DNA of 64,000 nt, taken from NCBI GenBank assembly GCA_002305045.1, contig DBPX01000020.1, positions 12,791 through 76,790 on the forward strand. Direction: 5' to 3'. How positions within the stretch are numbered: the first letter of the stretch is position 1; the number at the start of each line of letters is the position of its first letter. Of the stretch, positions 456-36,774 are shown piece after piece. Made by a program: the position numbers and the translations under genes. This DNA comes from Ruminococcus sp. UBA1409 (GTDB taxonomy: Bacteria > Bacillota > Clostridia > Oscillospirales > Ruminococcaceae). Under the pieces are notes generated by a model. That model had not been told where the DNA came from, searched no databases, and was given only the letters and a program-made list of their open reading frames with translations.

Positions 456-2255
456 GTGGAGGAAAAGATTGTCATATTTGCAGCCGGCAGCCCCTCGGCA
501 TACCCTCTTGAATACTACAACCCCGAGACGAAGAGCTTCGAGGGCGTCATCCCCGAGCTGTATAAGGGGTTTTCAAGCAAAAGTAAGTTCGAGATAGTAT
601 ACTACATGGCTGACGGCAGCGACCGCCGGGAGGAGCTTCTTAAAAACACTCAGGTGGACCTTGTGTCGTCCTATCCGGGCGAGGAGGGCTATGAGGACTG
701 CGAGAGGCTCACCGTCCTTTCGGCGGAGGAAGCCGACGGGCTGAGCGAATACACGGTTTATCTTACCAAGGCGGCTCCCGAGGACTTTAAAGAGGAGCTT
801 TACGAATATATCTCCGGCGTAGGGCAGGAGAGGGTCAGCGGGCTTCTTATCGAGGCGTCAAGGGAGGTCCCGAGGGACAATACTCCCGTGATTGTCGCCG
901 TAGCTATAGCTGTTGCGGCGGCGGTGATAATCACCGTGCTGTCGGTACTTCTGCATAGGTACAGAAAGAGGCTGAGAAAAGCCCTTGAGGATAAGGAAAA
1001 GGACAGCGTCACAGGCCTTGGAAACATCGACTATCTGAAAAGATACGCAAAGCAGTTTATCAACGACAAGAACAGGCCTCTTTACCAGCTCATGTATATG
1101 TATGTCGACATCGACCATATCAGGCGTGTCGGAGGGAGCCAGGAGGCTGACGATTTTATGCGTCACTGCGCCGTCACACTTCAGGATTACACCTCGGACA
1201 GCGACATACTCTCAAGAGTCTCAGACCACGGCTTTGTCATTATGAAGCTCTCGCTTGACAGCGGCAAGGCGGGCGACTGGCTGTCTGAGATGCTGGACAG
1301 GGTAAGGGCATACAGCAAAACCTACAGCAAGCCCTATGACACCGAGATGCATGTCGGCATATTCCCGATGAAAAAGGATTCCAAGAATCTTGACGAGGCT
1401 GTTTTCAGCGCATCGCAGGCGGCAATCTATGCAAGCGACATGAATCAGGAATACTGCTTCTGCTCCGACGAGATGCTAAGCGCCCTTGTCAGGGATAAGC
1501 AGCTTCAGGCGGGAATCGAAAGAGGCTTTGAGAACAAGGAGTTCGAGCTGTACATCCAGTTCTATGTCGACTGCGACACCGAGAGTATTGTCGGCGGAGA
1601 GGCTCTTTCCAGGTGGAATCATCCGCAAAGGGGGCTTTTGGCTCCGGCGGTGTTCGTCCCCCTTATGGAAAGGGAGGGAATGATAAGCCGGCTGGATTAC
1701 TACTGCCTCGAGAAGGTCTGCTTCTTCCTAGAGGGTCTTAGCGCAAAGGGAGTAAAGAGCTTTTTTGTCTCCTGCAACTTCTCAAGAGAGACCTTTGCCT
1801 CGCTTGACTTTGCACAGAGGGCGGGCGCAATAATAAGAAGATTCTCCTTCCCCAAGGAGCTTTTGATTCTCGAGATAACCGAGAGTCAGTCGGTAAGAAA
1901 TGTATCCCAGATACGAAAGAACATCCTGGAGCTTAAAAAGCTCGGGATAAGCATGATGCTGGACGATTTCGGAGAGGGCTTTACCTCCTTCTACGACCTC
2001 CAGAAGTACCCGATAAACGGAATAAAGCTGGACAAAAACCTAGTCGACCATATCATGACTCAGAGCGGAGCTACCATTCTCAGAGTTATGATACAGGTAG
2101 GACATGAGCTTGGCATGACGATTCTTGCCGAGGGAGTAGAGAGCCGTGAGCAGGTCGAGGCGTTAAAGCAGATGAACTGTGATGTAATCCAGGGCTTTAG
2201 CTTCTACCGGCCCATCCCCGAGTGGGAGGCTGAGAATATTCTGACCCAGCGCTAG
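456..2255 (+). CDS. Membrane-anchored EAL-domain protein with degenerate GGDEF domain
   Basis: A 599-residue predicted c-di-GMP phosphodiesterase. Residues 1-140 resemble a type-3 solute-binding sensor, but no signal peptide or first membrane helix is visible. One membrane helix lies at about 144-167. A GGDEF-like domain (about 180-345) lacks the GGDEF signature: GGSQEADDF and RVSDHGFVI occur where it should be, so cyclase activity is unlikely. The EAL domain (about 350-595) keeps the metal and substrate residues: EAL at 382-384, CNFS, EITES, DDFGEGF, KLDKN, LAEGVES and QGF, so hydrolysis of c-di-GMP is plausible. The chosen start is GTG with a weak upstream GAGG. It lies 21 bases before a second EAL protein and in the same apparent operon. 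Confidence 0.85.
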   Translation: MEEKIVIFAAGSPSAYPLEYYNPETKSFEGVIPELYKGFSSKSKFEIVYYMADGSDRREELLKNTQVDLVSSYPGEEGYEDCERLTVLSAEEADGLSEYTVYLTKAAPEDFKEELYEYISGVGQERVSGLLIEASREVPRDNTPVIVAVAIAVAAAVIITVLSVLLHRYRKRLRKALEDKEKDSVTGLGNIDYLKRYAKQFINDKNRPLYQLMYMYVDIDHIRRVGGSQEADDFMRHCAVTLQDYTSDSDILSRVSDHGFVIMKLSLDSGKAGDWLSEMLDRVRAYSKTYSKPYDTEMHVGIFPMKKDSKNLDEAVFSASQAAIYASDMNQEYCFCSDEMLSALVRDKQLQAGIERGFENKEFELYIQFYVDCDTESIVGGEALSRWNHPQRGLLAPAVFVPLMEREGMISRLDYYCLEKVCFFLEGLSAKGVKSFFVSCNFSRETFASLDFAQRAGAIIRRFSFPKELLILEITESQSVRNVSQIRKNILELKKLGISMMLDDFGEGFTSFYDLQKYPINGIKLDKNLVDHIMTQSGATILRVMIQVGHELGMTILAEGVESREQVEALKQMNCDVIQGFSFYRPIPEWEAENILTQR

Positions 2256-2276
2256 CGGCTGGAAAAAGGAGGCGGC

Positions 2277-4568
2277 ATGGACGAGAGCAGATTAAGAAGC
2301 CGTATGGTAAGGCTGACTGCGGCGGTAATAGCGGGGAGCATAGCTTTATGCATAGCAACCGGCTGTATATTGGCGTATATACTTGGCGCCGCTCACGATG
2401 CGGACCATGCTCAGCTTTTGGTCGAGGTCGACGAGTACAAGAGCCGCATCCTAAAGCAGCTTGACAAGAATCTCGAGATTCTTTCGATGCTCTCCGGCGC
2501 ACTCGAGACGACCGGCTCCAAGGAGGACATAGCAGCCTGCCTTGAAAACGGCATTGATAAAATATCAGACTCCGGCCCGTTTGTCAGCCTTGCGTACTTC
2601 TCTGACAGCGGCGAGGGGATAATCTGCGCTCCCGGCGTCGGAGTCCGGGAAATGCTTTTAGGCGAGTGCAGCCCGGAGGCAAGGGAAGCCGTCATGTCGG
2701 CGATGATGGGCGAAAGCTCGGTGTCAAGGCTGTTTGACAGCCTGATTTATGATGAAAAGGTGTTTGTCTACAGCGTCCCTGTCTACAGCGAGGGCAGGGT
2801 CGTCGGCGTTTTGGCGGGAGGGGACAGCTTGGAGCTGTTCGAGGACCTTGTAAACGGCGACACCGTAATGGGCGGAAAGGGGTACATCCACCTTCTTGGG
2901 CAGGACGGCAGCTTTATCGTCCGCTCCAAAAACACCCTTGTAAAGGAAAACCCGGCGACCATTTTTGACGGTCCCTATCTTTCCGACAACACCAAGGTCA
3001 ACGCCTACTACGCCCTGGCCTCAGGCGAGGGCATGTACGGCGATTTCAGCTACAGAGGCAAGCTCTGCCACTTTTACATGGAGCCTGTCGGGATAAACGG
3101 CTGGCAGCTCTTTTGCGTAAACCTTCTCTGGGGCACCTCGATGTCCTTTGGCAGGGTGCTTGTAATCGTGGGGATAGTGCTGTTTGCGGCGCTGATAATA
3201 ATGCTTGCAATCCTCTACACGAGCTATCACAGATTCAGAAAATACACCCAGGAGCTTTTAAAGCTGGCATACCGTGACCCGGTGACAGGCTGCAACAACA
3301 TCTTTAAGTTTGATAAGCAGTTTAAGGAGCTGACCGCCGTAAGCAAGAATTATACCGTGGCGGCGCTCAATATCCACAACTTCAAGGGTGTAAACGACCT
3401 CTTCGGCAGGGCAAGGGGAGACGGCATACTTACTATAATCAAGGGCGCAATCGAGGACGGGCTTCTGCCTGACGAGTTTTTCTGCCGTGACTCTGCCGAC
3501 ATCTTCTATATTTTATTCAGGGAGACGGACGAGGGAGTCGTCAGGGAGAGGATAAGGTCTATAACAAGAAACGCAGCCCAGTCGTCTATGGAGTACGGCT
3601 CCTACAGGTACGAAATCTCCTTCTACTCGGGAGCGGCGGTCTGCGGGAGCTGCGAGCAGGCTCTTGTCGCCATGCAGAGCATAAAAAGGGTTCACTATAC
3701 TGATATCGCCTTCTATAACGACAGGCTCCGTGAGGATGTCGTCAAGCGAAGCCGCATAGAGGGCAGAATGCAGACCGCTCTTGCCGGCAGGGAGTTCAAG
3801 CTGTTTCTGCAGCCAAAGTTCGAGCTTAAAACCGGCAGGCTGACCGGCGCAGAGGCTCTTGTGCGCTGGCAGAATCAGGACGGCTCATATATCTATCCCA
3901 ACGAGTTCATCCCCTTGTTCGAGGAAAACGGCTTTTGCATGAAGCTGGATATGTATATGGTGGAGCGTGTCTGCGAGCTTATAAGAAGCTGGCTTGACGC
4001 CGGGATTGAGCCGATACCGATATCCGTAAACCAGACAAAGCTTCTTTTCCGTGACCAGGGCTATCCCAACAGCCTAGAGCAGCTCCTTTTGAGCTATAAT
4101 GTCCCGCCGAGGCTGGTTATTTTAGAGCTTTTAGAGGACATCGCCGCCGAGAATCTAAAGCAGATAGACAGCCAGATAAAGACCCTTCATGCAAAGGGCT
4201 TCAGGGTGTCTATGGACGATTTCGGCAGTGGGTACTCCTCTCTTAACATGCTTTACCATCTTGAGGTTGACGAGATAAAGCTGGACAGGGGCTTTATGAG
4301 CAAAACCGGCGGCGAGGACGACAGCAGGAAAAAGGTCATTTTAGAGCATGTAATACTGCTTGCCAAGGAGCTTGGAATCGCCACCATAGCCGAGGGAATA
4401 GAGACAAGGGAGGATGTCGAGGACATGCTTAGGCTCTCCTGCGACTGCGGTCAGGGGTACTACTACGAGGCTCCCATGGAGTGGAGGGAGTTTTGCAAAA
4501 AGTACATATCCGGGCATGAGCCTGCTAAGGATAAGGCTGACGGCTCTGTCACCACCCGTCAGCCCTAG
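2277..4568 (+). CDS. Cache-sensor EAL-domain c-di-GMP phosphodiesterase
   Basis: A 763-residue transmembrane sensor. Helices at about 12-37 and 293-314 flank an extracytoplasmic segment of some 250 residues with the layout of a dCache ligand-binding domain. A degenerate GGDEF domain follows (about 330-490; DSADI at 405-409 replaces GGDEF). The EAL domain (about 495-745) retains all key motifs: EAL at 526-528, SVNQ, LELLED, MDDFGSGYSS, IKLDR, IAEGIET and CGQGYYY. It is therefore probably an active phosphodiesterase controlled by an external small molecule. A strong AAGGAGG precedes the ATG. The neighbouring upstream gene has the same domain logic with a different sensor, so the two may respond to different cues and feed one c-di-GMP pool. 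Confidence 0.88.
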   Translation: MDESRLRSRMVRLTAAVIAGSIALCIATGCILAYILGAAHDADHAQLLVEVDEYKSRILKQLDKNLEILSMLSGALETTGSKEDIAACLENGIDKISDSGPFVSLAYFSDSGEGIICAPGVGVREMLLGECSPEAREAVMSAMMGESSVSRLFDSLIYDEKVFVYSVPVYSEGRVVGVLAGGDSLELFEDLVNGDTVMGGKGYIHLLGQDGSFIVRSKNTLVKENPATIFDGPYLSDNTKVNAYYALASGEGMYGDFSYRGKLCHFYMEPVGINGWQLFCVNLLWGTSMSFGRVLVIVGIVLFAALIIMLAILYTSYHRFRKYTQELLKLAYRDPVTGCNNIFKFDKQFKELTAVSKNYTVAALNIHNFKGVNDLFGRARGDGILTIIKGAIEDGLLPDEFFCRDSADIFYILFRETDEGVVRERIRSITRNAAQSSMEYGSYRYEISFYSGAAVCGSCEQALVAMQSIKRVHYTDIAFYNDRLREDVVKRSRIEGRMQTALAGREFKLFLQPKFELKTGRLTGAEALVRWQNQDGSYIYPNEFIPLFEENGFCMKLDMYMVERVCELIRSWLDAGIEPIPISVNQTKLLFRDQGYPNSLEQLLLSYNVPPRLVILELLEDIAAENLKQIDSQIKTLHAKGFRVSMDDFGSGYSSLNMLYHLEVDEIKLDRGFMSKTGGEDDSRKKVILEHVILLAKELGIATIAEGIETREDVEDMLRLSCDCGQGYYYEAPMEWREFCKKYISGHEPAKDKADGSVTTRQP

Positions 4569-15916: not shown

Positions 15917-16771
15917 TTACAAGCCCTTTTTGAGCCTTCCCTTATACCCGGAGGGCGTGATCCCGTAATACGCCTTAAACGCCGAGGAAAAGTGAGAGCT
16001 TGAGGAATAGCCCAGCCTTTGTGCGGCGTCCTCGATGCTCATGTCCTCCCTTAAAAGAGTGACGGCGGCGTTCATCCTTGCCTCCTCCTTTTTGCGGCGG
16101 AAGCTCTTGGAGTAGTGACGCATCAAAAGCCTCTCGGTCTGACGCTTGCTAAGCCCCAGACGCCCCGCCAGCGACTCCAGCGTGAGGCTGCTGTAGTCGT
16201 ATAAAAACGCCTCCTCTATCGCAAGGTAGTTAGGCTCTGCGCCGATTCCGCCGTCTTGCTCGGGACGGTCGGTTCCCTTGCTCCTTTGATACAGCCTTAC
16301 CATGCTGACGACAAGCTGGGTCATTATGGCAATGATTATCTGCTCCCTTCCGGGGAGACTGCTTCTAAGCTCGGAAAAAAGCGAGAGCATCAGCTTGTGG
16401 ACGCTGCCGTCGTCGTACCCGAACCAGAAAGCCGTCCTTATGAACCGGGAGGCAATGTCTCCCGGCGGCTCCTTAGAGCCTCCCGACGCTTTAAGATAGA
16501 CGCAGTATTCGGTAAACTGGCTTGAGGGGGAGGCAAGCTGCTCATGCTCGACTCCCGGTCCTGTCATAAACAGGCAGCCGGGACGGATTTGGTACTCCCT
16601 GCCCTCGCATACAAGGACCCCGCTCCCCGACGGCACATAGTGAAGCTCGAAGCTGTTTTTGCTGTGCGAGTGCTTCGGCATCGGGGAAAGGTGCTTCTCA
16701 AGAGAAATATTCTGCACCGTAAACCGTGAATCGTCTATTTTAAAGCTTATTCCAAGCTCCCGGTATTTCAT
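15917..16771 (-). CDS. AraC-family transcriptional regulator
   Basis: A 284-residue protein with an N-terminal cupin-like ligand domain (HSHSKNSFELHYVPSGSG; FMTGPGVEH) and a C-terminal pair of helix-turn-helix motifs (about 185-280). The second contains SIEDAAQRLGYSSSSHFSSAFKAYYG, the AraC signature. GGGAGG stands 9 bases before the ATG at 16771; the longer version adds 22 residues without a better site. It is divergent from the sugar-acid operon, 191 bp away, and is the obvious candidate activator of that operon, sensing a sugar or sugar acid. That pairing is inferred from position only. Confidence 0.88.
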   Translation of the reverse strand: MKYRELGISFKIDDSRFTVQNISLEKHLSPMPKHSHSKNSFELHYVPSGSGVLVCEGREYQIRPGCLFMTGPGVEHEQLASPSSQFTEYCVYLKASGGSKEPPGDIASRFIRTAFWFGYDDGSVHKLMLSLFSELRSSLPGREQIIIAIMTQLVVSMVRLYQRSKGTDRPEQDGGIGAEPNYLAIEEAFLYDYSSLTLESLAGRLGLSKRQTERLLMRHYSKSFRRKKEEARMNAAVTLLREDMSIEDAAQRLGYSSSSHFSSAFKAYYGITPSGYKGRLKKGL

Positions 16772-16891
16772 AGTCCTTAACCTCCCGCCTATAAGCTCAA
16801 TTTTAGCTCCATGGCGGCAGGGTGTCAAGCCGCTCAAGGAAAAAATATCGAAAATGCGACATCACAATCAAAAATATGTCAGGTATAGGGC

Positions 16892-16937
16892 TTGAATAGC
16901 TCGGTATATTGTTATACAATGTATATTGTTATACAAT
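16892..16937 (+). promoter_or_regulatory. Promoter and tandem operator of the sugar-acid operon
   Basis: TTGAAT (16892-16897), 17 bp and TACAAT (16915-16920) form a sigma-A promoter. A 17-bp unit, GTATATTGTTATACAAT, is repeated head to tail with no spacing (16904-16920 and 16921-16937). Each copy contains the palindrome ATTGTTATACAAT. The first copy covers the -10, and the second lies at the expected transcription start. This is the geometry of a repressor site, and the sequence resembles GntR-type operators. No GntR gene is present in the window. Confidence 0.75.
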
Positions 16938-16962: not shown

Positions 16963-18162
16963 ATGATTGTCAAGGGTACATATTTTCAGAACGACCCCGA
17001 CAGACCGATAGTCTACGGCGATGTCGAGATTTCAGACATAAAAAGGCAGAGGCTGCGTGGCGAGCCCGAAAAGGAGGGAGTTCTCTGCGAGCCTGTCCTG
17101 GTGGGCTTCTGCGGGACGGATTACGAGCTTATGCACATGGGCGAGCGTTTAGAGCTGGGACCTAAGTTCCCTCAGGGGAAGGCCAGGCTTATAAACGGTC
17201 ACGAGGGGATAGTCTGGGTGCCGTCCCAGAACCGCTTTGCAATCGTCCTGATAAGGGGAGGGGACAGCTGCGACCCCACAAGATACACCGAGGACGAGAG
17301 CTACTTTGAGTACGGCTGCGACAGGGCGGACGGGCTGTTTGCCGACAAGCAGTATTTCAACCCGGATATGCTGCTTAAAATTCCCGACGGCTATGTCAGG
17401 GACGGCAGGCTGGACCTGGAATTTGCCAAGAAAATGGTATTTCCCGACCCCTACGGCTGTATGCTCTTCCAGCTTGAGAGGATGGAGGACCTAGGAAGCG
17501 CACATCTTTTCAGGGTGATAATGGCAAGAGAGCGCTGCGGGGAGGAAAGAGCCAGGGAGCTTGCCAAGGACGAGGTCTTTAAGAGGACGGTAATCTTCGG
17601 CCTAGGGACCACCGGGATGTTTATGGGAGACCTTATAAGGAGGCACCATCCCGACGCTAAAATACTCTTTGTCGCAAGAAGCCCGGAGGACTCTAAAAAG
17701 GTGCGCTTTGCCGTCCAGGAGGCGGACGCCGAATATCTAAGAAGCGATTTTCCTGACGAAAAGGAGCTTTCAAGGAATATAGTAGAGCGTCTTGGAGGCA
17801 GGGCGAGCATGTTTATCGGCGTGAGCGGCTCGAATGTAGAGCACAGGGTGGCGTTTTCTCACGGGGTGCTGGGCTGCAACGGCGTTTACAACAGCTTCTC
17901 GCTTGGGCCCAGGGTGGAGTATGACAGTATGCCGTTCGGCTTTGAAAACCACCTTATATTCGGCTCGATAAACTTCCGCCAGTGCCACATGGAAAGGGCG
18001 ATAGAGCTTCTGGCAGGCTCGAGGTACAACGAGATTGTCAGCCTTATCGACAAGGAGGAGTTCATAAAGGACCCGGTGGACGCCTACAGGAATAAAATAT
18101 ATTCAAAGGCGGCTCCTATGAAAACAGCCGTCATCTGGAACAAAAAATATATCAACGCATAA
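16963..18162 (+). CDS. Glucose-dehydrogenase-like sugar 1-dehydrogenase (MDR family)
   Basis: A 399-residue medium-chain dehydrogenase of the sugar/glucose dehydrogenase branch. Zinc ligands are visible in FCGTDYE and NGHEG; the nucleotide-binding fold begins VIFGLGTTGMFMGDLI; a glucose-dehydrogenase-type C-terminal part follows (FGSINFRQCHMERAIELL). The structural-zinc lobe is replaced by a segment with Cys at GDSCDP and EYGCD. Such enzymes oxidise an aldose at C1 to the lactone with NAD(P). AGGAGGT precedes the ATG at 16963. As first gene of the operon it could make the lactone that the amidohydrolase later opens; from the neighbours I infer L-galactose as substrate. A related hexose is possible. 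Confidence 0.8.
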   Translation: MIVKGTYFQNDPDRPIVYGDVEISDIKRQRLRGEPEKEGVLCEPVLVGFCGTDYELMHMGERLELGPKFPQGKARLINGHEGIVWVPSQNRFAIVLIRGGDSCDPTRYTEDESYFEYGCDRADGLFADKQYFNPDMLLKIPDGYVRDGRLDLEFAKKMVFPDPYGCMLFQLERMEDLGSAHLFRVIMARERCGEERARELAKDEVFKRTVIFGLGTTGMFMGDLIRRHHPDAKILFVARSPEDSKKVRFAVQEADAEYLRSDFPDEKELSRNIVERLGGRASMFIGVSGSNVEHRVAFSHGVLGCNGVYNSFSLGPRVEYDSMPFGFENHLIFGSINFRQCHMERAIELLAGSRYNEIVSLIDKEEFIKDPVDAYRNKIYSKAAPMKTAVIWNKKYINA

Positions 18163-18186
18163 ATAGCTGAAGCGAGGTAGTTTAAA

Positions 18187-19212
18187 ATGAAAACCGTACT
18201 CATAAACAAGCCCTACGAAATCGCCGTGACCGACACGGCTATGCCCTCCCCGTCAGAGGGCGAGGCGCTTTTAAAGGTCATGTACTGCGGCATATGCGGA
18301 GCCGATGTCGCAAGCTATACAGGAAACCAGCCCTTTACCACATATCCAAGGATTCCGGGGCATGAGTTTTCCGCAAAGGTTATAAGCATCCCCGAAAACG
18401 AGCTTGGAATCAAGCCGGGGGACATAGTGACCGCAAATCCTTACTTTAACTGCGGACACTGCTACTCCTGCGAGAGGGGACATCTTAACTGCTGCACAGA
18501 TAATCGCACCATGGGAGTCCAGCGGGACGGCAGCTTCTGCGAGTACATTTCAATGCCGGTGGAAAGAATCTATCCCGGAAAGGGTCTTGGCGCAAAGCAG
18601 CTTGCCCTAGTCGAGCCGTTTACTATAAGCTATCACGCCGTAAACAGGGGAGACATCCGTCCGAACGACAAGGTGCTTGTAATAGGAGCGGGACCTATCG
18701 GGCTTTTTGCCGTCATATCCGCAATCAAAAAGGGAGCTACTGTCTACGCCGCCGACATCTTAGACGGAAGGCTTAATAAGGCTTTGGAGCTTGGAGCCGC
18801 AGGGGTAATAAACTCCTCACGCTCTGATATTGTCAAGGAGACCGAAAGAATAACCGGCGGAAACGGCTTTGACTGCTGTATAGAGGCTTGCGGACGGCCG
18901 GAGACCTTCCTAAACTGCATCGACTGCGCCGCCTTTGCCGGAAAGGTCATCCTAATAGGAAACGGAAAGAAGGAGACCACCTTCCTGCACTCTATCCTTT
19001 TGAAAAAGGAGCTTAGCGTCTTTGGCTCCAGAAACTCGCTGAAGGCTGATTTTACCGAGGTAATAGACATAATAGCCTCCGGCAGCGTGGATGTCCTGGA
19101 GCTTGTGAGCGGGATATATCCAATCGAGAGGGCGGACGAGGCTTTCAAGGCGCTGGCGTCCAACACAGGAGAGCTTTGCAAGCTGCTTGTCAACATAGGC
19201 GACAGGGACTGA
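18187..19212 (+). CDS. Zinc alcohol dehydrogenase, likely sugar-acid (L-galactonate 5-) dehydrogenase
   Basis: A 341-residue medium-chain dehydrogenase. The catalytic zinc site is in CGICGAD and GHEF; the structural zinc Cys set is CGHCYSCERGHLNCC; the Rossmann motif is VIGAGPIGLFAV. The length and overall pattern fit the sorbitol/threonine/LgoD-RspB group. In Escherichia coli LgoD oxidises L-galactonate to D-tagaturonate, the substrate of the reductase encoded directly downstream here. This gene's position between a C1 dehydrogenase and uxaB makes the same reaction likely. Substrate assignment is by context. Confidence 0.83.
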   Translation: MKTVLINKPYEIAVTDTAMPSPSEGEALLKVMYCGICGADVASYTGNQPFTTYPRIPGHEFSAKVISIPENELGIKPGDIVTANPYFNCGHCYSCERGHLNCCTDNRTMGVQRDGSFCEYISMPVERIYPGKGLGAKQLALVEPFTISYHAVNRGDIRPNDKVLVIGAGPIGLFAVISAIKKGATVYAADILDGRLNKALELGAAGVINSSRSDIVKETERITGGNGFDCCIEACGRPETFLNCIDCAAFAGKVILIGNGKKETTFLHSILLKKELSVFGSRNSLKADFTEVIDIIASGSVDVLELVSGIYPIERADEAFKALASNTGELCKLLVNIGDRD

Positions 19213-19228
19213 TGGGAAAGGAGTCAAA

Positions 19229-20554
19229 ATGAGGGAGAGAATCATCCAGTTCGGCGAGGGAGGCTTTTTAAGAAGCTTCTTTGACATGTTCGTTCATATC
19301 ATGAACGCCAAGGGGCTTTTTGACGGCAAGGTAGTAGTCGTCCAGCCGATTGAAAAGGGTCTTATAGATGTAATAAACCAGCAGCACGGAGTCTATCACC
19401 AGTATCTAAGAGGGATTGAGAACGGCAGAGTGGTAAACGAGGTCACTGCGGTGGAGTCAATATCAAGGGGAGTCGACCCCTATAAGGACTATTTGGGATA
19501 TCTGGAGCTTGCAAAAAATCCCGACATGAGGTTTATAGTCTCCAACACCACCGAGGCGGGAATAGAGTATCTCGGGACGGAGAGCCTAAGCGACGCTCCT
19601 CCGAAATCATTTCCCGCAAAGCTCACCGCCCTTCTTTACGAGAGGTTTAAGTTGGGGCTTCCCGGCTTTATAATCCTTTGCTGTGAGCTTATCGACCGCA
19701 ACGCCGACCTTTTAAGGGAGTATGTCGTAAGGTACGCAGAGCTTTGGAAGCTTGGCAGGGAGTTTATAGACTGGCTGGAAAATGAAAACCGATTCGTAAA
19801 CACCCTTGTCGACAGGATATGCACAGGCTATCCCAAGGACGAGGCTAAAGCCCTTCTTTCGGAGCTAGGCTGTGAGGACAGGCTTCTAAACACCGCAGAG
19901 ATATTCCATCTTTGGGTAATAGAGGGCGACTATGAGAGCGAGCTTCCCCTAAAGCAGGCTGGGATAAATGTAATCTGGACCGATGATGTCACTCCGTACA
20001 AAAAGCGCAAGGTCAGAATCCTAAACGGAGCGCACACTTCGATGGTGCTTGCGGCGAGGCTTTTAGGGCTTAGCACCGTCGGCGAGTGCCTTGAAAACGA
20101 GCAGGTTTTGGGTATGCTCAAAAGGACTCTCTTTGAGGAGATAATCCCCACCCTTGGCTCTAAGGAGGAGGACATAGCCTTCGGGAACGCTGTTTTGGAA
20201 AGATTTGCAAATCCCTTTGTCAAGCATCAGCTTTTGAGCATAGCTCTCAACTCGGTCAGCAAGCTAAGGGCAAGGGTGCTTCCCACAATTTTAGAGTACA
20301 GGGACAAATACGGCAGCCTGCCCAAATGCCTTACCATGTCTGTAGCCGCACTCATAGCCTTCTACCGCACCGACGAGGCAAACGACAGCCCCGAGATTAT
20401 GGAGTTTATGAAAAAGGCAACGGTCGGGGAGATTCTTTCAAGGGTGGATTACTGGGGCTGTGAGCTTAGCTTCATGCAGGAGGCTGTGGAAAAGACCCTT
20501 GAGATTATCAAGACCGGCGGAATGACAGGATATTACGGGGAAGCACTGTCATGA
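19229..20554 (+). CDS. uxaB: Tagaturonate reductase (mannitol dehydrogenase family)
   Basis: A 441-residue NAD-dependent reductase of the long-chain mannitol dehydrogenase family. The N-terminal nucleotide-binding segment is IIQFGEGGFLRSF; the C-terminal catalytic motif is KVRILNGAHTSMV. UxaB converts D-tagaturonate to D-altronate. The altronate dehydratase gene begins inside its stop codon (ATGA overlap at 20551-20554), which supports the tagaturonate over the fructuronate (UxuB) assignment. AAAGGAG precedes the ATG. Confidence 0.88.
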   Translation: MRERIIQFGEGGFLRSFFDMFVHIMNAKGLFDGKVVVVQPIEKGLIDVINQQHGVYHQYLRGIENGRVVNEVTAVESISRGVDPYKDYLGYLELAKNPDMRFIVSNTTEAGIEYLGTESLSDAPPKSFPAKLTALLYERFKLGLPGFIILCCELIDRNADLLREYVVRYAELWKLGREFIDWLENENRFVNTLVDRICTGYPKDEAKALLSELGCEDRLLNTAEIFHLWVIEGDYESELPLKQAGINVIWTDDVTPYKKRKVRILNGAHTSMVLAARLLGLSTVGECLENEQVLGMLKRTLFEEIIPTLGSKEEDIAFGNAVLERFANPFVKHQLLSIALNSVSKLRARVLPTILEYRDKYGSLPKCLTMSVAALIAFYRTDEANDSPEIMEFMKKATVGEILSRVDYWGCELSFMQEAVEKTLEIIKTGGMTGYYGEALS

Positions 20555-21930
20555 CCGGGCTGATAAAAATAAACCCGGCGGACAATGTGGCTGTCGACCC
20601 CGCCACAGGACACAAGACCGCCCTCAATGAGATAAAAAAGGGCGGCAGGGTGATAAAATACGGCTACCCGATAGGAGTCGCAACCAGGGATATCTCCCCC
20701 GGGGAAACAGTACATACCGACTCCCTTGCGACCCTGCTGTCAGGCAAGCTTGAGTACAGCTACGAAAAAAGCCTAAAGCCGCTTCCTAGCCTCCCTGATG
20801 ACTACTTCATGGGATATCTTAGGGAGAACGGCGAGGTGGGGATAAGAAACGACATCTTTATTATACCCACCGTCGGCTGCGTCAACGGAGTGGCTAGGGA
20901 GGCTGCCCAAAGAACGGGAGCTATCGCCCTGACCCATCCCTACGGCTGCTCTCAGCTAGGAGACGACCAGCTAATCACCCAAAGGGTTCTCTGCGGGCTA
21001 ATAAACAGCCCCAACGCCGCCGGAGTGCTTGTTCTGGGGCTTGGCTGCGAGAACAACGGAATCGGGCAGATGAAGCGGGTGCTGGGGGAGTATAACCCTA
21101 AAAGGGTCAGGTTTTTAAACGCTCAGGAGGCGCAGGACGATGTCGGAGCCGCCGTGGAGCTAATAAACGAGCTAAAGAGCTACGCAAACAGCTTTAAAAG
21201 GTCAAGACAGCCTGTTTCAAGCCTTAGAATAGGTCTTAAATGCGGAGGGTCGGACGGTCTTTCCGGCATAACCGCCAATCCCCTGATAGGAAGGCTCTGC
21301 GACCGCATAGTCTCCATGGGCGGGGGCTGTGTTTTGACCGAGGTCCCCGAGATGTTCGGAGCAGAGACGATACTCATGCAAAGATGCGTAAGCCGTGAGG
21401 TCTTTGACAAAACCGTGCTTTTGATAAACTCCTTCAAGGACTATTTCACCCGGCACAATCAGGCGGTCTATGAAAACCCCTCTCCCGGCAACAAGGAGGG
21501 CGGGATAACCACCCTTGAGGAGAAGTCCCTGGGCTGCATCCAAAAGGGAGGAAGCTCGCAGGTCGTGGATGTCCTTGACTACGGGGACAGGGTAAGCCTT
21601 CCCGGGCTCAGCCTTTTAAACGGTCCCGGAAACGACATGGTTGCAGTTACAAACCTTGCCGCCTGCGGCTGTCAGCTCATACTCTTCTCTACGGGACGGG
21701 GGACCCCTCTGGGGACGGTCGTGCCGACTATAAAAATCTCGACCAACACGGCTCTTGCCTCACGCAAGCCGGGCTGGATAGATTTTGACGCCGGAGGAAT
21801 AATCAACGGCGAGGAGCTTGACGGGGACTTCTACAGATATATAATCTCAGTTGCCGAGGGCAGGCTCTGCGCCAACGAGAAAAACAATCAAAGAGAAATA
21901 GCTATATTTAAGGACGGTGTTACCCTTTGA
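20551..21930 (+). CDS. uxaA: Altronate dehydratase
   Basis: A 459-residue UxaA/GarD-family enzyme that dehydrates D-altronate to 2-keto-3-deoxygluconate (KDG). Residues 1-75 form the SAF domain; the rest is the dehydratase body with NDIFIIPTVGCVN, HPYGCSQLGDD, LGLGCENN, GLKCGGSDGLSGITANP and FSTGRGTPLG. It is translationally coupled to uxaB by a 4-base overlap. There is no uxaC in the window, so the pathway here is not fed by galacturonate through the usual isomerase. Confidence 0.9.
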   Translation: MTGLIKINPADNVAVDPATGHKTALNEIKKGGRVIKYGYPIGVATRDISPGETVHTDSLATLLSGKLEYSYEKSLKPLPSLPDDYFMGYLRENGEVGIRNDIFIIPTVGCVNGVAREAAQRTGAIALTHPYGCSQLGDDQLITQRVLCGLINSPNAAGVLVLGLGCENNGIGQMKRVLGEYNPKRVRFLNAQEAQDDVGAAVELINELKSYANSFKRSRQPVSSLRIGLKCGGSDGLSGITANPLIGRLCDRIVSMGGGCVLTEVPEMFGAETILMQRCVSREVFDKTVLLINSFKDYFTRHNQAVYENPSPGNKEGGITTLEEKSLGCIQKGGSSQVVDVLDYGDRVSLPGLSLLNGPGNDMVAVTNLAACGCQLILFSTGRGTPLGTVVPTIKISTNTALASRKPGWIDFDAGGIINGEELDGDFYRYIISVAEGRLCANEKNNQREIAIFKDGVTL

Positions 21931-22823
21931 GTATTTTGAACAGAGAGGGGCTTGTCATAATCGACGCCCATGCCCACCTTTGGGAGGAGCAAAGGGGAAG
22001 CGTAGGCGGTCTGCCGGTCTATCACACCCAAAACGGCATAAGCATGTTTTTAGGCGAGAGAAGGCAGATGATGCCGCCATATATGGAGGACGGCAGAAAT
22101 ACCGCCGAGAGGCTTATTGCAAATATGGACTACGCCGGAGTGAACGGAGCCGTCCTCACGCAGGAGTATATGGACGGCTGTCAGGACGGCTACTATCTTT
22201 CGGTCAAGGAAAGGTATCCCGGCAGGATAAAAATCTGCTCGCTTTACAGTGAGCGGCAGGATTACAGCACCGAGGGCTTCGACGGCATAAAGGTCTGCGC
22301 CTCCAGACTGAAGGACCCCGACCTGAAAAGGCTTCTTCCCCTGTTTTGCGACGCCGAGCAGAGGGGAATGTTTATCTCCATTGACCTTGCCGACGGCGAC
22401 AGTCAGACTAGGGATATGGAGTATCTAATCGAGCGCTGTCCCGGCCTTAGGATTGCAATAGGCCATTTCGGGATGGTCACGACTAAAAATTGGCAGGCCC
22501 AGATAGCTCTTGCTAAAAACGAGAATGTCTATATCGAGTCGGGAGGGCTGACATGGCTGTTTAATTCCGAGTTTTACCCGTTTAAGGGCGCCGTCAGGGC
22601 GATAAGGGAGGCTATCGGGATATGCGGAGCCGGCAAGCTGATGTGGGGAAGTGACTATCCCAGGACAATGACCGAGATAACCTATCCCATGTCCATAAGG
22701 TTCATACTTGAATCGGACGAGCTTGACGACCACGAGAAGAAGGCTTTCTTAGGCGAAAACGCCGCAGCCTTCTACGGCTTCAACGGGCTTGAGCCTATCG
22801 AGCCGATTAAAAATATGCTTTAA
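21927..22823 (+). CDS. Amidohydrolase-2 family hydrolase, probable sugar lactonase
   Basis: A 298-residue TIM-barrel metal-dependent hydrolase. It opens with IIDAHAHLW, has the mid-barrel GHFG and ends with WGSDYPRT. This is the pattern of the COG3618 branch, which includes L-fuconolactonase and L-galactonolactonase. The start used is TTG at 21927, overlapping the uxaA stop, which indicates coupling. In this operon it would hydrolyse the aldonolactone made by the first enzyme to the free acid. The family also contains decarboxylases, so the call rests on context. Confidence 0.72.
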   Translation: MSILNREGLVIIDAHAHLWEEQRGSVGGLPVYHTQNGISMFLGERRQMMPPYMEDGRNTAERLIANMDYAGVNGAVLTQEYMDGCQDGYYLSVKERYPGRIKICSLYSERQDYSTEGFDGIKVCASRLKDPDLKRLLPLFCDAEQRGMFISIDLADGDSQTRDMEYLIERCPGLRIAIGHFGMVTTKNWQAQIALAKNENVYIESGGLTWLFNSEFYPFKGAVRAIREAIGICGAGKLMWGSDYPRTMTEITYPMSIRFILESDELDDHEKKAFLGENAAAFYGFNGLEPIEPIKNML

Positions 22824-22835
22824 GGAGATGACTGT

Positions 22836-23285
22836 ATGCTAAAGGGAATTCCGAAAATCATTCCTCCGCTTCTTCTCAAGCTTTTAAGCGAGATGGGACA
22901 CGGCGACACTCTTGTAATAGCCGACGGCAACTTCCCCTCCGAGTCGGTGGGGAAGGGCTCGGCAGTCGTGAGGCTGGACGGGCACGGCGTCCCCGAGGTG
23001 CTTGACGCCGTCATAAGCCTTATGCCGCTTGACCAGTATGTAGAGCAGCCTGTAGCTCTTATGGAAAGGTGCCCGGGAGACGATGCCGACATCTCAATAT
23101 GGCAGACCTACTATGAGATTTTAAAAAGGCATGAGGGCAGGGGACCCGAGGACTGCCGGCTTCTCGAGCGGTTTGAGTTCTACGAGGAGGCAAAAAAGGC
23201 GTACTGCATAATCGCAACCACCGAAAAAAGCCAGTACGCAAACCTCATCCTGAAAAAGGGCTGCATAATCGAAGGCAACGGCTAG
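22836..23285 (+). CDS. fucU: FucU/RbsD-family sugar mutarotase
   Basis: A 149-residue protein matching FucU almost end to end: PPLLLKLLSEMGHGDTLVIADGNFP and YEILKRHEG with a C-terminal ATTEKSQYANLILKKG. The GHGD segment carries the catalytic His-Asp. FucU interconverts the anomers of L-fucose. L-Fucose is 6-deoxy-L-galactose, so a mutarotase for L-galactose is the natural fit at the end of this operon. AAGGAG precedes the ATG. Confidence 0.85.
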   Translation: MLKGIPKIIPPLLLKLLSEMGHGDTLVIADGNFPSESVGKGSAVVRLDGHGVPEVLDAVISLMPLDQYVEQPVALMERCPGDDADISIWQTYYEILKRHEGRGPEDCRLLERFEFYEEAKKAYCIIATTEKSQYANLILKKGCIIEGNG

Positions 23286-33311: not shown

Positions 33312-35036
33312 ATGAAAAAGTTTTTAAGCATTTTGACTGTCGCTTTGGCTCTTTGCCTCTGCATGACAGTTGCGTCATTTGCTGCCACTGCTGATATCGT
33401 ACACCAGTCGGTTGAAGGCACCGCAGTCATTGACGGTGAAAAGGACGACGCTTATGCCAACGCTCTGGCTCTTCCATTCATTGAGAAGGGTGTGAACAAC
33501 AGCTCCGGCGAGCCCTTTGACACAGCTCAGGCAACCGCTTACATCATTAACGACGCAGAGTGGGTCTATGTATACTTTGATGTATACGACACCTCTCTGG
33601 ACAACACCAGCGCCAACACCTACGAGCAGGACTCCGTAGAGGTATTCTGGATGGCTGACAACGCCAAGAACCAGATTAGATACCACTACCATCAGGACGA
33701 AAGCGGCAACGATGTTGTTGACGTCGACTCCGGCACACCCTCCGAGTCTAAGGTAAAGATTACCGACACCGGCTACGCTGTAGAGCTTAAGTTCCCGATA
33801 ACCGATGTTAAGAGCAATCAGATTGAGATGTGCCTTCAGGTTAACGCCTGCACCGACGGCGCCCGTGACTGCACCATCTACATAGAGGGCAATGCAGACG
33901 CTGACAACGCCTACCAGAGAACTAACCGTCAGTCCGAGTATGACTGCTGGTGGACCCTTACCCTCGCCGGCGAGTTTGCCGACACCAGAGTAGACCCTGA
34001 GGAGAAGCCTCTTGACTACAGCCTCAAGGCTTGGAACAACATCAAGGCTGCTCAGATTTCCGCTTCCATCCACGCTCAGAACAATGTCGACTGGTCTGAC
34101 TGGGCAACGTGGACCACCGAGACCATCAACGTCCCGATAGGACAGACCGTTGATATTGCTTGGGAGATGTTCAACAAGTCAGAGTTCAACGCTGAAAACA
34201 CCAACAACTTCACCGTTGTTCCTCAGTTCTCCCTCGACATCAGCGACGCCTCCGGCTACCTCACCATCAAGGACGGCGCAGTTGAGGGCGACAAGGGCGA
34301 CAAGGCTAAGTATCGCTACACCTACAGCGACATCACCATCACCTCTGAGGGCTACGACGACATCGTAATCCCCGGCGCATCTGTTGCTCAGACCTGGGAA
34401 ATCTATGTTCCCTCTTGGGGCGGAACTGCCGGTAACGGCGGAAATATCGACATGTCCGGTGCTCTTGTAAGCGCTGGCTACACCGTTGAGCAGGTAGTCG
34501 ACATAATGGCTAACCTCACTGCGGTTAAGCTCTCGCTCACCTTCGAGTCTATCGACCTGGTTGACACCGCTCTTCTTGCCGAGTGGGATGCTCTTTACGA
34601 GGCTGAGGATACCGCTAAGATTGCTGAGCTCCAGGAGTACATCGACAGAGTTGAGGCTGCTAAGGCTGTTATAGCTGACGAGGCTGCTGACATCACCGCC
34701 AAGGAAGAGGCTGTTGACGACGCTAGCAAGGCTGCCAACAGAGCTACCAAGGAGGCTGAGGGCTACACTCAGGCTACCGCTAAGGCAGGCGAGCTTACCG
34801 CTGCCGTTGAAGAGATGACAGCTACCCTCGAGGAGCTTAAGGCTGCCGCTGCCGAGCCTGAGGAGCCTGCTCCTGCCGAGGACGAGACTCCCGCTCCCGC
34901 AGAGGACAATGCTCCCGCTGCTTCTGCCTCCTCTGATTCCGGCTCGAGCACCGGCCTTGTAGTAGGTATCGTTATTGCGGTTGTAGTTATCATAATCATA
35001 GTTGCTGTTGTCCTCTCCAAGAAAAAGAAGGCTTAA
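33312..35036 (+). CDS. Secreted, membrane-anchored protein with N-terminal CBM9-like domain
   Basis: A 574-residue surface protein. A signal peptide (1-24, cleavage near SFA|AT) leads into a CBM9-type carbohydrate-binding domain (about 28-230) with GTAVIDGEKDDAYANA and WVYVYFDVYDTSLDN. A second beta-rich region (about 235-420) is unassigned. An alanine/glutamate coiled coil (about 450-525), an acidic proline linker, a membrane helix (about 548-570) and a KKKKA tail follow. There is no LPxTG, so anchoring is by the C-terminal helix. AGGAGG precedes the ATG, and codon use (GCT and GTT-rich, few ATA/AGG) differs from neighbours in the way highly expressed genes often do. It may be an abundant glycan-binding envelope protein; no catalytic domain is visible. 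Confidence 0.8.
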   Translation: MKKFLSILTVALALCLCMTVASFAATADIVHQSVEGTAVIDGEKDDAYANALALPFIEKGVNNSSGEPFDTAQATAYIINDAEWVYVYFDVYDTSLDNTSANTYEQDSVEVFWMADNAKNQIRYHYHQDESGNDVVDVDSGTPSESKVKITDTGYAVELKFPITDVKSNQIEMCLQVNACTDGARDCTIYIEGNADADNAYQRTNRQSEYDCWWTLTLAGEFADTRVDPEEKPLDYSLKAWNNIKAAQISASIHAQNNVDWSDWATWTTETINVPIGQTVDIAWEMFNKSEFNAENTNNFTVVPQFSLDISDASGYLTIKDGAVEGDKGDKAKYRYTYSDITITSEGYDDIVIPGASVAQTWEIYVPSWGGTAGNGGNIDMSGALVSAGYTVEQVVDIMANLTAVKLSLTFESIDLVDTALLAEWDALYEAEDTAKIAELQEYIDRVEAAKAVIADEAADITAKEEAVDDASKAANRATKEAEGYTQATAKAGELTAAVEEMTATLEELKAAAAEPEEPAPAEDETPAPAEDNAPAASASSDSGSSTGLVVGIVIAVVVIIIIVAVVLSKKKKA

Positions 35037-35077
35037 TCGCCCTAAGGAGACGGCATAGCCGCAAAACCTGAAAATTT

Positions 35078-35113
35078 AAATACGGCGCACCAAGTCGGTG
35101 TGCCGTATTTTTA
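35078..35113 (+). terminator. Terminator of the CBM9 protein gene
   Basis: A 10-bp stem (TACGGCGCAC with one wobble pair), 7-base loop, then five T. Confidence 0.85.
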
Positions 35114-35253
35114 TAGAGGCTGATTAGAATACATCAATGATTTAATGATAATAATTCATTAATTAGCCGACTAATTTATGTATAATATAAGTATAACTAA
35201 CGCCTCCAACCGGCATGGCAGGAATAGACAAGGCATTGAAAGGAGAGAGCAGA

Positions 35254-36774
35254 ATGCTCAGAGTAGTAAAAACCGAAAACGGAATCGTAAGGGGAATAGA
35301 GGCGGCAGACCCCAGAATCACCGCCTTCAAGGGAGTCCCGTTTGCCGCTCCGCCGGTGGGGGAAAACCGCTGGAGAGCGCCTCAGCCCGCAGAAAGCTGG
35401 GAGGGCGTCCTCGACTGCTCGAGGTTTAAAAGCATCTCAATGCAGGACACTCCCGGACTCGGGACGGATATCTACTGCCGTGAATGGCATGTCGACCCCG
35501 AAATACCGATGGGGGAGGACTGCCTGTATCTAAACATCTGGACTCCGGCGAAAACCGGGGAGGAAGCCCTGCCGGTGCTTGTCTGGTACTTCGGAGGGGG
35601 ACTTCAGTGGGGCTACACCAGCGAGATGGAGTTTGACGGCGAGCGCATGGCAAGGCGTGGGATAGTCGTAGTCACGGTAAACTACCGACTTGGAGTATTC
35701 GGATTTTTGGCTCATCCACAGCTTACAAGCGAGCAGCCCGACGCTCCTACAAACTTCGGAAGCCTTGACCAGCAGGCAGGGCTTAACTGGGTCAGGCGGA
35801 ACATAAGGGCGTTCGGAGGGGACCCTGACTGCATTACCATCGCCGGGCAGTCTGCCGGCGGAGGCTCGGTTATGTCCCAGATAACCTGCCCCAAGAACAA
35901 GGGACTGATAAAAAGAGCGATAGTCCAGAGCGGAATCATCCGCTCCCCATATATGCCGGACGGCTTCGGCAGACCGGGAGGAATGAAGGCTGTCGAGGAA
36001 AACGGCAGGATATTCCTTGAGGAGTATCTTGGAGTGGACACCATCGAAAGGGCAAGGCAGCTAGATGCGTTTTATATCAGGGACAAGTACGGCGAGTACG
36101 CCTCAAAGCACCCGAGATTCTTTACAAATATGGACGGCAGCTTCGCCGTGGGAGACCCTGTTTCCCTCTGTGCGGCGGGAGACTGTCTGGATGTCGACAT
36201 CATGGCAGGAAACACCGTCGACGAGTTCAGGAGCTTTATCCCGGCGGCTGACGATAAGGAGCTTTCAGCCAAGGCAGAGGGCATCTTCGGGGAGAAGGCA
36301 GAAAAGTTTTTAGCCCTCCCGGGAGCAAGGGAGTCGGACGGTCACGGGCGCTACGCCTCGGTCAGCGGAATCGAGGTCACGGCTAAGGCGATGTTCTCAA
36401 GGCTCAAGGAGCATTTCCCCGACAAGCGTTATTACTACTACAGATTCAACCCCGATATCCCCGGCGAGGACAATCCGGGAAGCTTCCACTCCTGCGAGCT
36501 GTGGTTCATGTTCGAGACGCTTGCCAAGTGCTCAAGACCGTATGTCGGCAGGCATTATGACCTGGCAAGGCAGATGTGCAACTACTGGTGCAACTTCATT
36601 AAGACCGGCGACCCCAACGGCAGGGACGCAGACGGAAGTCAGATGCCCCTCTGGGAGGAGTATACCGACGGCAGTCACTCCGGCATGACCTTTGTCAGCG
36701 AGGGAAGCGTCCCCGAGGGAAGCGACGGCGAGCTTGTAGCCTTCCTGACAGAGCATGTAAAAAATAAAATATAG
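35254..36774 (+). CDS. Type-B carboxylesterase
   Basis: A 506-residue alpha/beta hydrolase of the carboxylesterase/acetylcholinesterase family. Features in order: GVPFAAPPVGENRW, oxyanion-hole stretch WYFGGGLQWG, nucleophile elbow GQSAGGG, the acid within VDEFRSF and the catalytic His in GSFHSCELWFMF. No signal peptide is seen, so it acts in the cytoplasm. It may deacylate plant- or host-derived esters, but the substrate cannot be read from the sequence. The start is ATG at 35254 after AAAGGAG; the frame extends 13 codons further without support. Confidence 0.9.
   Translation: MLRVVKTENGIVRGIEAADPRITAFKGVPFAAPPVGENRWRAPQPAESWEGVLDCSRFKSISMQDTPGLGTDIYCREWHVDPEIPMGEDCLYLNIWTPAKTGEEALPVLVWYFGGGLQWGYTSEMEFDGERMARRGIVVVTVNYRLGVFGFLAHPQLTSEQPDAPTNFGSLDQQAGLNWVRRNIRAFGGDPDCITIAGQSAGGGSVMSQITCPKNKGLIKRAIVQSGIIRSPYMPDGFGRPGGMKAVEENGRIFLEEYLGVDTIERARQLDAFYIRDKYGEYASKHPRFFTNMDGSFAVGDPVSLCAAGDCLDVDIMAGNTVDEFRSFIPAADDKELSAKAEGIFGEKAEKFLALPGARESDGHGRYASVSGIEVTAKAMFSRLKEHFPDKRYYYYRFNPDIPGEDNPGSFHSCELWFMFETLAKCSRPYVGRHYDLARQMCNYWCNFIKTGDPNGRDADGSQMPLWEEYTDGSHSGMTFVSEGSVPEGSDGELVAFLTEHVKNKI

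Follow-up and report, generated by a model that had tools for sequence, protein, structure and literature searches.

The window, a 64,000-nucleotide stretch of DNA from a gut bacterium, carries six open reading frames (ORF1 to ORF6) within positions 16963-23285. All six lie on the + strand and are separated by gaps of +24, +16, -4, -4 and +12 bases, which bears out the first-pass annotation, where they were called a six-gene operon. A regulator gene and a tandem repeat are found upstream (Table 1).

Table 1. Features of the operon and its upstream region.
Feature	Position	Strand	Basis or remark
AraC-type regulator, divergent	15917..16771	-	Pfam AraC_binding + HTH_18
Tandem repeat, two perfect copies of a 17-base quasi-palindromic unit	16904..16937		25 bases before ORF1
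ORF1, remote glucose-dehydrogenase-like MDR sugar 1-dehydrogenase	16963..18162	+	sub-threshold Glu_dehyd_C, fold
ORF2, zinc MDR dehydrogenase, LgoD/RspB-like	18187..19212	+	family profiles, E. coli comparison
ORF3, UxaB-type tagaturonate reductase	19229..20554	+	Mannitol_dh; NF002969
ORF4, UxaA-type altronate dehydratase	20551..21930	+	GD_AH_C 327 bits, GD_AH_second 139 bits
ORF5, amidohydrolase, TTG start	21927..22823	+	Amidohydro_2
ORF6, FucU-type mutarotase	22836..23285	+	RbsD_FucU 137 bits

For the regulator, the sequence favours the ATG start at 16771 over a TTG at 16837. Among the 72 related loci with 1.5 kb or more of sequence ahead of the gene set, 25 have a homologue placed divergently at most 2.5 kb upstream. 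The 17-base unit is found on the + strand of the window at 16904 and 16921 only, and could possibly be a site for the regulator. No counterpart of the repeat was found among 79 related upstream regions, 9 of which have some loose palindrome or other repeat. A conserved operator before ORF1 was therefore rejected, and any function of the repeat is, for the same reason, a guess.

The earlier family assignments stand, those of ORF1 and ORF5 mainly by way of fold. ORF3 scores 519 bits on the tagaturonate reductase model NF002969 (cut-off 359) and matches E. coli K-12 UxaB at 48%, and ORF4 matches UxaA of the same strain at 49% and a GarD fragment at 32%. At family level, UxaB- and UxaA-type enzymes leading to KDG are present in the operon. 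ORF6 matches the FucU structure 3mvk with 195 bits, E. coli K-12 FucU at 41% and RbsD at 27%. When ORF2 was compared with five E. coli K-12 MDRs, LgoD was the best match (35%, 207 bits), narrowly above RspB (193 bits), and from its sequence we propose ORF2 as an L-galactonate 5-dehydrogenase.

The only Pfam match of ORF1 is Glu_dehyd_C at 22.2 bits, under the cut-off of 34.9. Its AlphaFold model (pLDDT 77.5) has archaeal glucose dehydrogenases as top PDB folds, and residues C50, H80, E81 and D162 are invariant in 39 aligned sequences. Glucose dehydrogenases are also matched weakly in a sequence search of the PDB (E 2e-4 and 9e-4); ubiquitin matches in the same search were dismissed as chance. 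We propose ORF1 as a putative L-galactose 1-dehydrogenase. The ORF5 model (pLDDT 88.5) has as top folds the cog3618 structures 4do7 and 4dlf, 6uvz and, equally, 2-pyrone-4,6-dicarboxylate hydrolases. Its description as COG3618-type derives from fold and finds no backing in the curated model NF052480 (20 bits, cut-off 400), and an ORF5 profile matches only 4i6k and 2ffi in the PDB. We propose ORF5 as a candidate 1,5-lactonase.

L-galactose is a rare plant cell-wall sugar. We lean towards the reading that the operon serves the catabolism of L-galactose released from plant cell-wall glycans, with the substrates, cofactors and regulation all predicted. FucU (ORF6) would interconvert the sugar anomers, ORF1 would oxidise C1 to give L-galactono-1,5-lactone, and ORF5 would open the lactone. 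ORF2 would then oxidise C5, converting L-galactonate into D-tagaturonate; ORF3 would reduce this to D-altronate, which ORF4 would dehydrate to KDG. As a guess, ORF1 may use NADP, from an Arg-Ser following the second strand of the nucleotide fold, and ORF2 may use NAD, from an Asp following that strand. KDG would be phosphorylated by a PfkB kinase and split by a KDPG aldolase. Genes for both, assigned at family level, are adjacent on another contig of the host genome (kinase G000:C2:32308-33234, aldolase 33669-34250), and this KDPG aldolase is the only one found in the genome. The reading is supported by what was observed: the gene families, their order, operon-like spacing and recurrence, a lower pathway present in the same genome, and the tie to UxaB.

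The locus resembles the lgu cluster of Luteolibacter sp. LG18, where a divergent activator (annotated Btr and presumably of AraC type), a C1 dehydrogenase, an L-galactonate dehydrogenase, a tagaturonate reductase and an altronate dehydratase are likewise held in one cluster. This one-cluster pathway (lguABCDEF) was published in 2025, with the same reactions demonstrated and with growth defects of lgu mutants on L-galactose (PMC12632266). A one-operon version as such is therefore not new; what the first-pass annotation had considered new was such a version with a FucU mutarotase in a Clostridium relative. No lactonase or FucU is named for Luteolibacter, the words lactonase, mutarotase and FucU being absent from the main text, though an 'rbsD' adjoins lguG elsewhere (PMC12632266). 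The Luteolibacter cluster also has an aldolase and a fructokinase, and LguA clusters with known L-galactose dehydrogenases and reads as an aldo-keto reductase at its N-terminus, whereas ORF1 is a remote MDR. Neither the AKR-type LguA family nor a cluster-encoded aldolase was found among the six ORFs. The E. coli route through lgoD, uxaB and uxaA shares C5 oxidation, reduction and dehydration to KDG, but begins at the acid, and the three genes are scattered in E. coli K-12. Phocaeicola (Bacteroides) vulgatus BVU_0219 to BVU_0222 is reportedly an L-galactose pathway with a cog3618 lactonase (said to be from Hobbs 2014). As far as it is cited in PMC12632266, that pathway shares a C1 dehydrogenase and an L-galactonate dehydrogenase yielding D-tagaturonate, but its first enzyme falls in the LguA/plant GalDH cluster. 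ORF1 matched Glu_dehyd_C and MDR folds only, which by family and fold sets it apart from LguA, BVU_0219 and plant GalDH, presumably all AKRs (LguA judging by its N-terminus). No description of the six-gene operon in Clostridia was found among the entries listed in searches of the open-licence literature.

Related loci numbered 187, and recurrence of the gene set (the module) was surveyed in the best 80 of them, to which all counts out of 80 refer. The exact six-gene order, for which a search had been suggested in the first-pass annotation, was found in 30 of the 80, so the arrangement is not chance. A four-gene form without uxaBA is seen in 19; locus L027 of Lachnospiraceae bacterium YSD2013, which may be culturable, has the four-gene form. 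In 8 of the 80 an iron-type dehydrogenase replaces the zinc one (PF13685 confirmed in two; L062 has such an Fe-ADH_2 protein); the glycerol-1-phosphate dehydrogenases of this family, judging from their chemistry, oxidise a carbinol configured like C5 of L-galactonate. It had also been considered that close homologues might sit with uxaC instead; uxaC lies near the module in just one of the 80 loci (L016, 6.9 kb).

The distribution of UxaB was examined in 50 module genomes. Where the module lacks uxaBA, 27 of 31 genomes encode a UxaB over the cut-off outside it, compared with 100 of the 390 other genomes sampled from the class (p = 1.1e-11), with 46 of 109 GH95-bearing class genomes (p = 1e-5), and with a second UxaB in 1 of the 18 genomes with uxaBA in the module (p = 1.5e-8); these p values are too small, since the 50 genomes were picked mostly for uncut modules, are related by ancestry and are unmatched in lineage to the class sample. 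Within records titled Lachnospiraceae, Lachnoclostridium, Butyrivibrio or Acetatifactor the corresponding figures for a UxaB outside the module are 1 of 10 with uxaBA in the module and 15 of 18 without. The exceptions among uxaB-less modules, which weigh against the L-galactose reading, are G183 and G184, with neither a UxaB over the cut-off nor a fragment, and two genomes with fragments at contig ends only. The uxaBA pair thus sits inside the module or outside it and seldom in both places, which ties the module to tagaturonate and altronate and favours L-galactose. In a UxaB tree all 38 operon UxaBs form one clade, for which a single recruitment suffices; the idea that uxaBA was recruited again and again, and so proves a common chemistry, was for this reason rejected. 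The clade is separated from the outside-module UxaBs by a long stem, which could mean an altered substrate and is counted against the L-galactose reading.

The L-galactose to KDG chemistry of the first-pass annotation is the most economical reading and has the comparative support of uxaBA, but has evidence for L-fucose against it. Breakdown of L-fucose, alone or with L-galactose, in place of the FucI-FucK-FucA route is a possibility we regard as doubtful. ORF2 and ORF3 would invert C5 of L-fuconate to give 6-deoxy-D-altronate, ORF4 would dehydrate this, and cleavage would yield pyruvate and lactaldehyde. ORF6 belongs to the FucU family, and the neighbouring hydrolases suit L-fucose no less than L-galactose; these were spotted by eye and by sequence motifs, with a Pfam check of 20 selected neighbour proteins. 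GH29 is found at 2 of the 80 loci (L037, L075), once within the module and once immediately upstream of it, and GH95 is directly beside three closely related modules (L010, L011, L012), being His-type in the two read (L010, L011). In support of L-galactose, GH95, a family that includes L-fucosidases and L-galactosidases (PMC4491172), is found in 42 of 50 module genomes against 109 of 390 other class genomes. Among genomes with GH95, however, FucI is present in 5 of the 42 that carry the module and in 53 of the 109 others of the class (p = 2.7e-5), and overall in 6 of 50 against 119 of 390, as if the module took the place of FucI; neither comparison is lineage-matched, which counts against the L-fucose reading. 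Known fucose routes, to our knowledge, need no C5 inversion. The operon has no aldolase or lactaldehyde enzyme, and the link to a UxaB elsewhere, beside uxaC in 21 of 27 genomes, points to ordinary tagaturonate.

The GH95 residue equivalent to Thr370 was rejected as a test between L-galactose and L-fucose. It is Thr in 37 of 40 domains fetched from module genomes (part of all hits) and His in 3, namely the two beside the modules of L010 and L011 and one from the window's own genome. Of 40 control domains fetched from other class genomes, 37 could be read, and 33 of these have Thr and 4 His. Since Thr prevails in controls and is also reported in true fucosidases (PMC8245568), the residue is uninformative about the module.

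An oxidative L-fucose locus is known from Campylobacter jejuni, where a dehydrogenase, a hydrolase, a dehydratase and a mutarotase are encoded together (PMC6946681). There, FucX is a FabG homologue, L-galactose gave no growth increase, and the gene list read shows no UxaB-type reductase. Neither a FabG-like (SDR) fucose dehydrogenase nor a DapA-type aldolase was found among the six ORFs. Somewhat less likely still is the stronger form, in which L-fucose (or L-fucose and L-galactose) would be oxidised by a hitherto undescribed route. C5 of L-fuconate would be inverted via 5-keto-L-fuconate and 6-deoxy-D-altronate before dehydration, making up for the absent FucI pathway of gut Clostridia, Treponema and Chloroflexi, with C5 oxidised in part of the family by an enzyme of the iron-type glycerol-1-phosphate dehydrogenase kind.

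The claim that uxaC is absent holds for the operon and fails for the genome, where uxaC is present on another contig (C21). No UxaB over the cut-off other than that of the operon was found in the host genome, so the operon UxaBA could also serve galacturonate. It is nonetheless improbable that ORF3 and ORF4 act mainly on D-galacturonate via the genomic uxaC while the other four genes form a separate sugar-oxidation module sharing the transcript, an arrangement the 19 loci with four genes would fit. No uxaA or uxaB was found in the 16 kb read around uxaC, and an Ashwell-type galacturonate operon, uxaC together with uxaB and uxaA, was not seen. Whereas 21 of 27 outside-module UxaBs lie within 2 kb of UxaC, 0 of 19 module UxaBs share a contig with it, and uxaBA stands between ORF2 and ORF5 at 30 of the 80 loci and after FucU at 2. 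Least likely of all is that ORF1 acts on another aldose (D-arabinose, L-glucose or a D-hexose) and a different acid enters the pathway: its fold resembles archaeal glucose dehydrogenases, and Luteolibacter LguA and LguD also accept L-glucose and L-gluconate (PMC12632266), but the L-glucose branch there requires the C4 epimerase LguG to reach tagaturonate, which the operon lacks, and FucU and the GH95 and GH29 neighbours suggest L-galacto-configured sugars.

The best reading is the known L-galactose-to-KDG pathway in a new form, with an apparently unrelated first enzyme plus a putative lactonase and a mutarotase. If L-fucose were the substrate instead, a new branch of deoxysugar metabolism would be at hand. 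If the L-galactose reading is true, it would give a function to the large dehydrogenase family of ORF1, which has 2152 homologues at E <= 0.001 (among the 120 listed, few are named, as 'hypothetical protein' or 'Threonine dehydrogenase'), and to an amidohydrolase branch, relatives of ORF5 numbering at least 8000. It would also bear on the remark of the Luteolibacter authors that they found no organism having the six remaining orthologues while lacking lguG (PMC12632266), and hence just the L-galactose part, though the first enzyme differs. L-galactose use would then appear to extend well past Bacteroides and Luteolibacter, to uncultured gut Clostridia.

The operon proposed by the first-pass annotation is present with all six genes on the + strand: a putative sugar 1-dehydrogenase (ORF1), a zinc dehydrogenase (ORF2), uxaB (ORF3), uxaA (ORF4), an amidohydrolase (ORF5) and fucU (ORF6), with gaps of +24, +16, -4, -4 and +12 bases. 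By eye, its upstream neighbours are deacetylase-like and ComEC-like genes and its downstream neighbours an ABC export-type pair; no sugar transporter or glycoside hydrolase was seen directly flanking it. A 17-base quasi-palindrome precedes ORF1, and no counterpart was found in 79 related upstream regions.

Coordinates of features in the window, in its genome (G000) and in related loci
Feature	Position	Remark
GGDEF-EAL proteins	window 456-4568	tandem pair
AraC-type regulator	window 15917-16771	divergent from operon
Quasi-palindrome	window 16904-16937	two perfect tandem copies, just before ORF1
Six-gene operon	window 16963-23285	
CBM9 protein, then carboxylesterase	window 33312-36774	possibly plant-fibre related
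GH95 genes	C12:257568-258785; C12:318221-319426	one His-type, one Thr-type
uxaC region (L085)	G000:C21:6000-22000	AraC-type gene near uxaC (by eye)
PfkB/KDPG aldolase region (L109)	G000:C2:26000-44000	GH31-like and GH130-like proteins after UxuA-like/UxuB-like genes (by eye)
Isomerase/epimerase-like region (L110)	G000:C12:2000-12000	two TIM-barrel proteins (by eye)
Iron-type dehydrogenase	L062:4758-6119; L064; L068; L073; L084	after ORF1 homologue
Iron-type dehydrogenase	L069; L070; L074	after ORF5 homologue
Xylose-isomerase-like TIM barrel	L070:6676-7482	AP_endonuc_2 (Pfam), after module
Xylose-isomerase-like TIM barrel	L074	after module (by eye)

ORF3 scores 519 bits against the curated tagaturonate-reductase model (cut-off 359) and shares 48% identity with E. 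coli UxaB. ORF4 is closer to E. coli UxaA (49% identity) than to a GarD fragment (32%), and ORF6 closer to E. coli FucU (41%) than to RbsD (27%). Among E. coli proteins ORF2 is nearest to LgoD (35%, 207 bits) and RspB (34%, 193 bits), with Tdh, IdnD and GatD scoring lower. The two remaining genes were assigned mainly by fold. The sole Pfam match of ORF1 is Glu_dehyd_C at 22.2 bits, below the cut-off of 34.9, and NCBIfam gave no match. The top fold matches of its AlphaFold model (mean pLDDT 77.5) are the archaeal glucose dehydrogenases 2b5w and 2cdb (TM 0.56-0.65, rmsd 6-7). C50, H80, E81 and D162, presumably the catalytic zinc ligands expected in the glucose dehydrogenase family, are invariant in 39 aligned sequences; just C103 and C119 are left in the putative structural zinc lobe region. 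ORF5 is likely a lactonase, since it belongs to Amidohydro_2 in Pfam and the nearest folds of its model (pLDDT 88.5) are 2-pyrone-4,6-dicarboxylate hydrolases, 6uvz and the cog3618 proteins 4do7/4dlf, which we take to be the L-fuconolactonase of Hobbs 2013.

Searching named genome contigs with ORF1 yielded 187 loci, and the gene content of the best 80 was determined by tblastn (at least 80 bits). The exact six-gene order, which the first-pass annotation had wished to see sought elsewhere, recurs in 30 of these 80. The string without uxaBA is found in 19, all six genes with uxaBA after fucU in 2 (both titled Treponema), and shorter strings in 21, many ended by a contig edge. In the remaining 8 the zinc dehydrogenase was not found and an iron-type glycerol-1-phosphate-dehydrogenase-like enzyme is present, placed between ORF1 and the amidohydrolase (4 loci), after ORF1 with no amidohydrolase found (1), or after both (3). 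At the same threshold fucU was found in none of these 8, five of which have 10 kb after ORF1, nor in L023, L025, L076 and L081 (and L018) although 10 kb follow; a diverged gene scoring below 80 bits could account for some such cases. Likewise, no amidohydrolase was found in L082, where 10 kb also follow. Hosts named in record titles are mostly herbivores, sampled from the gut (rabbit, cattle, buffalo, sheep, goat, horse, deer); Clostridia, Treponema and Chloroflexi are among the taxa. ORF1 is rare when genomes are sampled evenly: it occurs in 3/147 of the order, one of them being the window's genome, and in 1/391 of the class, which is again the window's genome.

The tie to tagaturonate was evaluated on 50 genomes: the window's own, 18 with uxaBA in the module and 31 without, the latter 49 picked from the best 80 loci mostly for uncut modules. 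UxaB exceeds the cut-off in 46/50, 19 of them guaranteed by selection. Where the module lacks uxaBA, it does so in 27/31 genomes (29/31 counting two contig-end fragments), against 100/390 other class genomes (p = 1.1e-11) and 46/109 GH95-bearing class genomes (p = 1e-5). Of the genomes with uxaBA in the module 1/18 has a UxaB elsewhere, versus 27/31 of those without (p = 1.5e-8); among records titled Lachnospiraceae, Lachnoclostridium, Butyrivibrio or Acetatifactor the figures are 1/10 versus 15/18 (p = 2.7e-4). All these p values are too strong, given the common descent of the genomes and a class sample not matched by lineage. No UxaB was found in G183 and G184, two module genomes. All 38 operon UxaBs in the tree group in a single clade with a long stem, and the window's has 441 aa versus 472-510 aa for the outside-module UxaBs read. 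UxaC lies within 2 kb of UxaB in 21/27 outside-module cases; the stretches fetched around such UxaBs matched UxaB and UxaA in 19/19, with uxaC also read in 12/19. The first-pass annotation named close homologues sitting with uxaC and pectin genes as evidence against its route; no UxaC was found on the contig of any of the 19 module UxaBs, although L016, a locus from outside the 50 genomes, has uxaC 6.9 kb from the module.

The window's genome (1.74 Mb, 22 contigs, 88.5% complete) has a single UxaB over the cut-off, the operon's, two GH95 genes on C12 and no FucI match. The absence of uxaC holds for the operon and not for the genome, which carries one on contig C21, with no uxaAB found in the surrounding 16 kb. 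Galacturonate could therefore in principle use the operon's UxaBA. On contig C2 a PfkB kinase adjoins a KDPG aldolase, beside a UxuB-like protein (66 bits to the UxaB model) and, by eye, a UxuA-like one, so KDG can presumably be processed.

We regard L-galactose as more likely than not the substrate, because of the tie to ordinary UxaBA, these lower-pathway genes, and the iron-type dehydrogenase in place of the zinc one (PF13685, confirmed by Pfam in L062 and L069). We infer that glycerol-1-phosphate dehydrogenases of this family act as oxidants of a carbinol that adjoins a terminal CH2OH and is configured as C5 of L-galactonate. The xylose-isomerase-like proteins of L070 and L074 could be sugar epimerases.

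L-fucose, alone or together with L-galactose, is rather unlikely as the feed. It is favoured by GH29 inside the L037 module and directly upstream in L075, and by GH95 directly upstream of the close relatives L010, L011 and L012, with a fucosidase-like His in L010 and L011. Furthermore, FucI occurs in 5/42 GH95-bearing module genomes versus 53/109 other GH95-bearing class genomes (p = 2.7e-5; 6/50 module genomes overall). GH95 itself is commoner in module genomes (42/50 versus 109/390, p = 1.9e-14) and covers both sugars, since BACOVA_03438 is an L-galactosidase and AfcA a fucosidase (PMC4491172). Some modules have GH31, GH2, GH43 and GH36 genes nearby, in keeping with xyloglucan or grass xylan; 17 of the best 80 of 187 loci carry one or more of the hydrolases looked for, a raw count uncorrected for background.

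An L-galactose route of P. vulgatus (Hobbs 2014) is reportedly older than the Luteolibacter one. The first-pass annotation took a one-operon version with a FucU mutarotase in a Clostridium relative to be new. A one-cluster L-galactose route as such was already published: PMC12632266 reports one in Luteolibacter sp. LG18, backed by knockouts, which has a divergent activator and whose last three reactions are those proposed for the operon. As far as our searches go, what appears new is a lactonase candidate and FucU within one operon, a first enzyme (ORF1) whose dehydrogenase family seems unrelated, the variant with an iron dehydrogenase, and how widely the module is spread among gut Clostridia. 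The authors of PMC12632266 came across no organism that has the other six orthologues and lacks the L-glucose epimerase; a C4 epimerase like their LguG would open the L-glucose branch.
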